Of a stretch of DNA of 64,000 nt, positions 6,953-59,369 are shown one piece after another; position 1 is the first letter of the stretch, and every line of letters starts with the position of its first letter. The translations under genes and the position numbers were made by a program. The DNA is from Hamadaea flava. Its GTDB lineage: Bacteria > Actinomycetota > Actinomycetes > Mycobacteriales > Micromonosporaceae. Where the stretch lies: assembly GCF_024172085.1 (NCBI RefSeq), contig NZ_JAMZDZ010000001.1, positions 5,518,001 through 5,582,000 on the forward strand. Direction: 5' to 3'. The notes below the pieces were generated by a model. That model was not told the origin of the DNA, searched no databases, and worked only from the letters and a program-made list of their open reading frames with translations.

Positions 6953-6989
6953 CACTTCCGGGCCCCGATCCGCGCTGGATCAGTTTCTC

Positions 6990-8014
6990 CTATGTCAAGG
7001 GGCTGATCGTGGCGTCGGCTTTGAGGCATCGATAGACGACGTCGGATAGGCGTCGTTTGAGCACCCGCAGGGCTTCCCTGCGGGTGTTTCCGTTGGCGAG
7101 GCGGCGCTCGTAGAGCTGCCGGCCGGGTGGGTAGTCGACAGCTGGGTGATGGCGATGGTGTGCAGGCAGGAGTTGAGCTGGCGGTTGCCGATGCGCGAGA
7201 GCCGGTGGCGCTGTTGGTTGCCCGACCAGACCGGGACCGGTGCGCTGCCGTTGTGCCGGGCGTAGGCGTGTTGCGAGCGGAACCGGGTGATGTCGGCGGT
7301 CTGGGCCACGATCCTGGCCGCGGTCAAGGATCCGCAGCCGGGCAACGCCAGCAGAGTGGGCGCCAGGACCGCGATGTGCTCGCTGATCTGCCGGTCGAGC
7401 TCGCCAATACGCACGGTCAGCTGAGCACATCGCTGGGCCAGCTCACCGGCGAGTTCGGCGACCAGGCCAGTGGCGTCGGCCAGCCGACCACGCAACAGGG
7501 TGAGGTGTTTAGGCCGGTGAGCGCTGCGGGCGGGTGGTTGCCAGTCGGGGTTGATCTCGTGAATGTGCCAGCGCAGCTGGTTGATCACCCGAGTGCGTTC
7601 GGCGACCAGACCGGCACGGTGATCGACCAGAAGACGCAGCTGCCGTGGCGGGCCGTCCAGGACCGCGGTGGGCAGATCCGGTTCCCGCAGCGCGGCCCGG
7701 GCCACCGCCAGCGCATCGATCGGATCGGACTTGCCATAACTACGGGCACTGTCACGGGCCTTGGCCATCAGCTTGGGCGGCACCCGCGCGATGCGTTCCC
7801 CCACCGCCAGCAGATCGGCCTCCAGCCGCCGCGACAACGGCCGGCAATCCTCCACCGCGAACCGCCGCTCACCGAACTGACCAGCCCACCGCACCAACAA
7901 CAGATGACCGGCGGCATCAGCCGAGACCGTCTTGGTGGCCAGCAGCCGACCCGCCGCGTCCACCGCCGCCACCGTATGACTGCGCTTGTGCGCATCGATT
8001 CCCAGGACCACCAT
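6990..8014 (-). pseudogene. IS110-family DEDD transposase, frameshifted near the C terminus
   Basis: The N-terminal RuvC-like domain shows the DEDD set at D7 (LGIDAHK), E55 (AVEDC), D97 and D100 (KSDPIDA). A coiled middle is followed by the Tnp domain with LALPGCGSLTAARI and the candidate catalytic Ser264 in PVWSGNQQRH. After about residue 299 (TTHPAG, near 7117-7127) the frame is lost: the direct reading gives an unrelated Ser/Thr/Pro-rich tail ending at 6995. A -1 shift restores the standard end RQLYERRLANGNTRREALRVL, with its stop at 6990. The ATG at 8014 has GAGAGGAA upstream. This may be an inactivating one-base deletion, a sequencing error or, less likely, a programmed shift. Confidence 0.8.
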
Positions 8015-8054
8015 GAGAAGCGTTCCTCTCACCAGTCGAAGCAGGGGAACCCCG

Positions 8055-8200
8055 CATCCGACCCGGAGGCACACCTCAGCTGGGGCGCAGCCACGCTCCT
8101 ATCAAGCCACCCGGGACGGACCAGGGCACCCGGCGGGCCGCACTACTGACCAACGCCACGCAGGCAGGGTTCCGGAGAGCGAACCCGCCGGGCATGCCCC
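8055..8200 (-). ncRNA. Putative bridge RNA of the IS110 element (target and donor loops)
   Basis: In the non-coding end upstream of the transposase, the minus strand can form two stem-closed loops. Target loop: CCCGGCGGG (complement of 8184-8192) pairs perfectly with CCCGCCGGG (8129-8137). Inside it lie CCGGAACCCT (8166-8175), identical to the left target flank at 8214-8223, a small GCC/GGC hairpin, then GGTCAG (8146-8151), which can pair with the right target CTGATC with one G-T wobble. Donor loop: CCGTCCCGGG (8110-8119) pairs 9/10 with TCCGGGTCGG (8058-8067). It holds ATAGGAG (8096-8102), which matches the element right end at 6987-6993, and CTGAG (8075-8079), complementary to the left end CTCAG. 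The layout follows the published IS621 bridge RNA. Ends are approximate. Confidence 0.6.
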
Positions 8201-8215
8201 AACAATGACACTGAG

Positions 8216-8304
8216 GGTTCCGGGTCGAATCTTGACCGACCGCACTCCTGGCGGCTCGCCCAAGAGGCTCCCCGGCGAGATTCGACCGAGATCCCTGATC
8301 CAGC
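8216..8304. repeat. Right part of the palindrome split by the IS element
   Basis: The left arm is GCTGGATCAG at 6974-6983 joined to 8216-8232 once the IS is removed; the right arm is 8278-8304. The two 27-base arms agree at 24 positions and read GCTGGATCAGGG...GGTCGAATCT. The same words occur in the palindrome at 18683-18747. The region between the arms (8233-8277) has no gene. Confidence 0.75.
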
Positions 8305-18682: not shown

Positions 18683-18747
18683 GCGCTGGATCACGGATCT
18701 CGGTCGAATCTTGGCCCAAGGTTCGACACAGAACCCTGATCCAGCGC
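18683..18747. repeat. Intergenic palindrome, same family as the IS110 target
   Basis: Outer arms GCGCTGGATCA (18683-18693) and TGATCCAGCGC (18737-18747) are perfect 11-mers; inner parts pair partly. It contains GGATCTCGGTCGAATCT and GAACCCTGATCCAGC, the same words seen around the IS insertion at 6974-8304. It lies between convergent efeB and the RDD gene and may act as a terminator. Confidence 0.7.
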
Positions 18748-58992: not shown

Positions 58993-58999
58993 CGCCAAG

Positions 59000-59369
59000 T
59001 GGAGGTGCGGGGAATCGAACCCCGGTCCCTCGCCGCATTGGCAGGGCTTCTCCGAGCGCAGCTCGCTATGCCTTTCTCGGCCCCACCGATCACACGAGCG
59101 AGTCGGTGTGACGGGCCCAGTCGCGATTGATCTCGCCGCCCCAGCCCCGCGACAGGACCGGATTGGCCAGCCTACTTACTGATGCCGGTGAACTAGGGCG
59201 TAGGCACCCCTAGACCGACAGACCTGCTACTCGCCTCAGGCGGCGAGAGCGAGGTCAGCGCGATTAACCTTGGCGCTTATAGGTTTTCGACGTCGATTAA
59301 CGAGACGGCGTCGACTTCCTCGGCTCGCTTCTCCTACCGCAACGTACGCGGTCGAAACCTGTCACCCCC
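59000..59369 (-). ncRNA. ssrA: Transfer-messenger RNA
   Basis: Minus-strand tmRNA of about 370 nt. The 3' tRNA-like part reads CGGGGTTCGATTCCCCG (T arm) followed by CACCTCC, which pairs with 5' GGGGGTG (59369-59363) with one G-U pair; the discriminator is A and CCA is not encoded. The 5' end continues GACAGGTTTCGAC, as in other actinobacterial tmRNAs. The tag frame at 59274-59236 reads AKVNRADLALAA then TGA, ending in the LAA proteolysis signal. It works with SmpB, encoded at 56123. Confidence 0.93.

Follow-up and report, generated by a model that had tools for sequence, protein, structure and literature searches.

The window, that is, the whole 64,000-nucleotide stretch of Hamadaea flava DNA analysed here, carries an insertion sequence of the IS110 group on its minus strand (6984–8213). 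Its boundaries were set by comparing the four copies present in the same 8.86-Mb genome, and the ends recur in relatives. The window element measures 1230 bp between two CT cores and each of the other three copies has one base more; this single-base difference separates the window copy from all three, which are identical to one another. The gene of the DEDD/serine transposase (6995–8014, minus strand), placed by Pfam and by the copy comparison, encodes the domains DEDD_Tnp_IS110 (PF01548, E 1.8e-24) and Transposase_20 (PF02371, E 2.7e-17). Residues D7, E55, D97, D100 and S264 are invariant across 15 aligned sequences and appear, from their order and motifs, to correspond to D11, E60, D102, D105 and S241 of IS621. 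A DEDD RuvC-like domain joined to a Transposase_20 domain with its conserved serine is the arrangement of the IS110 group, and the layout is also that of the group: about 200 bases between the core and the ATG hold the RNA described below, and the right end spans about 10 bases. The single-base difference shifts the transposase frame near the C-terminus, after about residue 293 and beyond S264, while the gene is intact in the three other genomic copies. Because of this frameshift the window copy is probably not autonomous; its RNA segment, identical to those of the intact copies, could be used by their protein. The insertion site looks intergenic from the ORF layout, and we take the flanking genes, from their translations, to be aldehyde dehydrogenase-like and phosphomannomutase-like.

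Records carrying the clade of IS110 elements to which this one belongs are mainly actinobacterial. A search of three congeners for the transposase gave no match at E 1e-60. A scan of genome contigs with the single transposase protein gave no match, whereas a scan with a protein alignment did find relatives. In a plasmid collection 54 records matched at 60–90% identity, three of them covering at least 80% of the query, at ∼66%.

From the copy comparison, the left end reads CT|CAGTGTCA and the right end TAGGAGAAA|CT. The outer flanks differ at all four insertion places, and all four places lie in an arm of a palindrome, GATCAGGGTTCCGGGTCGAATC...GATTCGACCCGGAACCCTGATC. In the window, the left target is an arm of this REP-like palindrome ending in the core CT (8214–8231, minus strand), and the core together with the right target GATCC occupies 6977–6983 (minus strand); the same right junction, CTGATCC, was observed at all four copies. 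The original prediction had proposed examining the insertion sites of other copies, and here it held up: three of the four copies have the exact word CCGGAACCCT at the left junction, and the fourth (L026) has CCCAGAAACT, a degenerate arm with 5/10 ungapped identities to the left guide, which could pair better with a one-base bulge. The joined flanks of the window copy and of two others (L024 and L025) give the uninterrupted REP arm CCGGAACC-CT-GATC, which is also present elsewhere in the genome. As these joined flanks restore the uninterrupted arm, the element was inserted at a dinucleotide core without target duplication, which is the mode of the IS110 group. Three congeners were examined for an orthologous empty site and no exact one was found: in G001, which lacks REP arms at 3 mismatches, the matches of the two neighbouring genes are 86 bases apart, the contigs of G003 end at the locus, and G002 gave the downstream side only. 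The joined core is also flanked by a sub-terminal inverted repeat of 5 bp, TGACA/TGTCA (window 6987–8213), compared to 2–3 bp described for the IS110 group (PMC11208160).

The target repeat is abundant in this genome. Its 18-base arm has 218 matches at ≤3 mismatches, against 2 for the reversed pattern, and 14 places have the 14-base target CCGGAACCCTGATC exact and uninterrupted. The 22-base arm has 212 matches here, 378 and 388 in two congeners and 0 in the third; in 57 genomes outside the genus, we found one match each in three and none in 54. REP elements are described as present in >100 copies per genome (PMC2817692), and a short palindrome with 212 arms, two to each full palindrome, is consistent with that copy number. 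The repeat is thus abundant in only three genomes of one genus among the 61 searched, and a guide tuned to such a genus-restricted repeat suggests that guides evolve to fit their host. Around the left junction, 8216–8304 form an 89-bp composite repeat of two REP arms around a 40-bp unit, which has at least seven further near-full copies in this genome. The 40-bp unit alone accounts for many of the matches listed, and is also found in the congener G001. A second, degenerate REP arm (3 mismatches) lies in the window at 18720–18741.

The non-coding left end of the element contains the segment that we analysed as a candidate bridge RNA. A covariance model was built from 40 relatives of other genomes (∼50–63% protein identity), with the present genome excluded. 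Its best match in the window was 8045–8203 on the minus strand (match R1; 72.9 bits, E 1.5e-14), and the next best had an E-value of 0.46. In the 8.86-Mb genome, where 150 of 10,498 first-look candidates were scored, the four matches at E ≤ 0.001 were the four IS copies. The model was also applied to 53 further relatives (52 named loci without strict end words, and L028): a match at this threshold adjoined the transposase gene in 46, lay elsewhere in L110, and was absent from six. The candidate RNA had originally been placed at 8055–8223. A bridge RNA match does lie there, but the model places it at 8045–8203, and 8204–8223 are the tip of the element and the target flank. An Rfam gathering search of the window returned no bridge RNA family; it returned only a tmRNA gene (58997–59369, minus strand).

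RNAalifold of the 40 relatives gave a common two-loop structure of 40 pairs, 19 of which show at least one two-sided compensated change, 11 of them in the target-loop stem. The conserved fold anticipated by the original prediction is therefore present, and a model of it finds the segment. Folding of the segment by itself, also suggested there, agreed less well: the two-loop fold emerges from the relatives, but minimum-energy folding is modest (z −2.23 and −2.48) and closes part of the target loop. Since minimum-energy folding alone is not striking, the case rests on the comparison with relatives.

All features of the two loops lie on the minus strand. The target loop is closed by a perfect 9-bp stem, as had been claimed, whose 5′ arm (8184–8192) is the complement of the 3′ arm (8129–8137); the homologous stem in relatives shows compensated changes. 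Inside it, a small hairpin, GCC-TGCGT-GGC (8155–8165), with a homologous counterpart in relatives, separates the left target guide CCGGAACCCT (8166–8175), which includes the core CT, from the right target guide GGTCAG (8146–8151). The donor loop is closed by 9 of 10 pairs, one of them G-U, between 8110–8119 (5′ arm) and 8058–8067 (3′ arm), again in agreement with the earlier description. Its small hairpin, GGC-TGC-GCC (8084–8092), seen in the sequence and in the fold of relatives, likewise has guides on its opposite sides: the left donor guide ATAGGAG (8096–8102) and the right donor guide GCTGAG (8075–8080). The words themselves were found where they had been reported, CTGAG being at 8075–8079.

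The target-loop guides match both halves of the target. The left guide is identical to the flank at 8214–8223; CCGGAACCCT occurs twice in the window on the minus strand, against an expectation of 0.15, and 0/100 dinucleotide shuffles gave two occurrences. The right guide pairs with CTGATC with one G-U. We compared guides with targets across relatives using 71 insertions in which both ends were recognised, comprising 43/51 whole-genome rows (window included) and 28/80 named loci; 8/51 and 52/80, respectively, were left out for want of strict end words. From 64 distinct insertions that could be parsed we obtained 40 distinct left-guide words, each represented in the test by one insertion. For L116 and L138 no guide was parsed; the parses of L102 and L139 were faulty, and these two were kept in this test and dropped from the handshake test below. 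The longest match of a left guide to its own target had a mean of 7.55 (median 8), compared to 3.38 for targets of other lineages (40 guides), and 0/20,000 permutations reached the observed sum. For the right guide the values were 6.15 (own) and 4.26 (cross), again with 0/20,000. When split by sort of target (24 start-codon, 16 other), the left guide gave 0/20,000 in both, and the right guide 8/20,000 among start-codon targets, where it is weaker, and 0/20,000 among the others. The tested rows are related lineages, and these permutation counts should not be read as probabilities. In 18 of the 71 insertions no exact left match reached 7 bases.

One relative (L063; G209:C1:3901150-3905037) has 78 bp of its own left end repeated without a mismatch (78/78) directly to the left of the copy. 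The fragment ends just past the target guide and is preceded by TTTAGATTGGGCG, like a usual target; it looks as if the element had inserted into its own guide, followed by recombination.

The donor guides match the ends of the element. In the window ATAGGAG is identical (7/7) to 6987–6993 at the right end, and GCTGAG can form five pairs and one wobble (G-U) with CTCAGT at the left end. The donor test used 51 sources, a mixed choice of loci, of which 49 were aligned by the model (all except L079 and L082); for want of flank, L088 was out of the left-end count, and L084 and L157 were out of the right-end count. The right donor guide has 15 forms in 48 sources, and its partner was present in the own left end in 42/48, compared to 16/626 for other forms. 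The misses are L143, L117, the window, L028, L124 and L095; the window fails this strict test because its guide has a wobble, and L124 because the word is at the edge of the counted stretch. The left donor guide was present at its own right end in 40/47, against 2/235 in cross comparisons. The claim that all four guide positions are filled is thereby borne out, and target and donor guides co-vary with the target and the element ends, with some misses.

The left donor guide had been considered the weakest of the four, its identity said to stop five bases before the core. It does stop short, but by three bases and not five, and the doubt is partly answered, since relatives show both the word and the gap, and the word changes together with the right end. 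In 68/71 left ends the donor-loop sequence is GATAGGAGCGTGGC; for 28 of the 71, AGGAGCGTGGC had been part of the criterion by which they were picked. The donor triplet next to the core is variable (AAA, CAA, CTA, AGA, CAG and AAT). In 34/41 distinct combinations it can pair fully with the three bases that follow the right target guide, and 0/20,000 permutations reached the observed sum; for IS621 two such positions are described (PMC11208158). The triplet behind the right target guide occupies the place of the IS621 handshake guide in the same description. As judged from the aligned relatives, the left-donor gap is a feature of the clade, in which the core-adjacent bases are mostly matched by a putative handshake guide in the target loop. 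In the window this guide would be TAG (8143–8145, minus strand); it matches one of the three donor bases, its first base being able to pair with the donor base left of the core. For a handshake of the donor loop with the target base beside the core, inspection by eye in a few lineages gave no general rule.

Joining of the ends also creates a candidate promoter. The right end TTGACATAGGAG (6987–6998, minus strand) is the left half of the donor and contains a −35-like word; once the ends are joined, the −10-like word CATTGT (8202–8207, minus strand) follows 17 bases after it, giving TTGACA-N17-CATTGT. Across distinct left ends, the −10 word has A at its second position in 47/47 and T at its sixth in 46/47. 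The conservation of TTGACA was not counted because it is part of the search pattern. A promoter rebuilt in the circle has been reported for IS621 (PMC11208160), and the candidate across the joined ends fits this.

Taken together, the data make it very probable that 8045–8203 (minus strand) encode the bridge RNA of an IS110-group element, and we are close to certain of the fuller reading in which it guides insertion into a REP arm. The sequences directly support the conserved fold, the match of four guides to target and donor, the presence of four copies in the same repeat and the co-variation; transcription, protein binding, circle formation and catalysis are what we infer from them. In the proposed mechanism, the non-coding left end would be transcribed into the bridge RNA. 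The left guide of its first loop would pair with the bottom strand of CCGGAACC-CT and the right guide with the top strand of CT-GATC, the target being one arm of a REP-like palindrome of the host genus. The partners of the second loop would be the joined ends of the element itself, with ATAGGAG on the right and CTCAGT on the left. Held by the RNA, the DEDD/serine recombinase would then exchange strands at the shared CT, and the excised circle would be inserted into the palindrome without target duplication.

RNAs of this kind were described in 2024 (PMC11208160, PMC11208158, PMC11187229), and the present element adds a new example. With the IS621 bridge RNA, as described in PMC11208160 and PMC11208158, it has in common an RNA at the left end with a target loop followed by a donor loop, left guides that pair with bottom strands and right guides with top strands, a CT core, a REP palindrome as target, a candidate promoter across the joined ends, and putative handshake guides. 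Compared by description, IS621, an IS110-group element of E. coli, differs in its REP family, the host here being actinobacterial; and, unlike in IS621, there is a gap of three bases between the left donor guide and the core. The seekRNA of the IS110-type element ISEc21 is likewise described as an upstream non-coding RNA matching both target strands, and as required for transposition; for its relative ISMch6 a natural case of redirection through a changed guide is reported, and ISEc21 itself differs in having its target in certain IS3-family transposase genes (all PMC11187229). Among solved chains the sequence matched only the ISCro4 transposase (PDB 9t56; whole-sequence E 3.5e-4), and this match, a comparison of proteins only, is very distant, with two weak stretches, one per domain.

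Other explanations of the segment can be weighed against the same data. It is directly 5′ of the transposase gene, and for an IS110 relative, ISPpu9, small RNAs and a structure in the 5′-UTR are reported to regulate the transposase (PMC8450116); the segment might thus be a regulatory leader of the transposase mRNA (an attenuator or an antisense-controlled 5′ UTR) and not a guide. We think this very unlikely, as a leader would not change with the insertion site from one lineage to another, although guide and leader roles could coexist. The guide word might instead be a chance or passenger match without a guide role, the left end having captured a piece of a REP arm at an earlier insertion. Guide DNA identical to the flanking host DNA is what a captured flank would give, and the L063 copy, with its left-end fragment duplicated beside the IS, also points this way. 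However, relatives have different words at the same position that match the targets of their own lineage far better than those of others, and the right guide and both donor guides co-vary as well, so that we regard capture as highly improbable.

The shared site of the four copies might also have arisen by duplication of a larger repeat unit carrying both the IS and the palindrome, the copies being nearly identical and all in the same repeat. Against this, the copies cease to be identical within the palindrome at their left and a few bases past the core at their right, and the outer flanks differ at the four places, which contradicts duplication and leaves it with a negligible probability. Guided insertion by a bridge RNA remains our reading of the locus, which provides a complete and internally consistent set of guides, target and donor, together with several natural insertions spread over a number of lineages. 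From such sets one can read where a guide tolerates mismatch or variable spacing and which loop has to match which donor bases, and both points matter for the use of these recombinases as programmable tools.

Many relatives have targets of another sort. In 36 of the 71 insertions an ATG or GTG follows exactly six bases after the right-end AGGAG. These 36 include three repeat records (L114, L129 and L151), L063, whose left flank is its own left end, and seven in which the frame after the start codon has <100 codons. By raw count, the motif TANNNT stands 5–9 bases upstream of this start codon in the joined flanks of 30/36, the arrangement of leaderless genes. The target guides spell such a −10-like box (TANNNT) and the start codon, for example in L029, L030, L038, L040, L045, L065, L126, L135 and L153. 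As AGGAG is left six bases before the host start codon, the element may give the displaced gene a new Shine-Dalgarno site, and a leaderless start may thus be replaced by a Shine-Dalgarno start. A limited literature search found no report of promoter/start-codon targeting of this kind. IS900 may insert near translation starts.

These clade-level features are the more novel part of the analysis and are drawn from sequence comparison. We propose, with about even confidence, a joint reading of them that combines split reading of the donor, re-aimed target guides and a Shine-Dalgarno hand-over. For the donor, pairing of the left donor guide would be confined to the outer part of the right end, and reading of the three core-adjacent bases would fall to a handshake guide of three bases in the other loop, that of the target. 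The target guides would have been re-aimed within the clade between two sorts of safe harbour, namely REP palindromes specific to a lineage, which is the case here, and the junction of promoter and start codon in genes that appear to be leaderless; at such junctions the guide would spell the −10 box and the start codon, with slightly variable spacing. Separately, we observed that L078, L080, L081 and L085, which come from different actinobacterial groups and are among the closest relatives (59–63% protein identity), share the target CCACCACTC...GG-CGC or one close to it.
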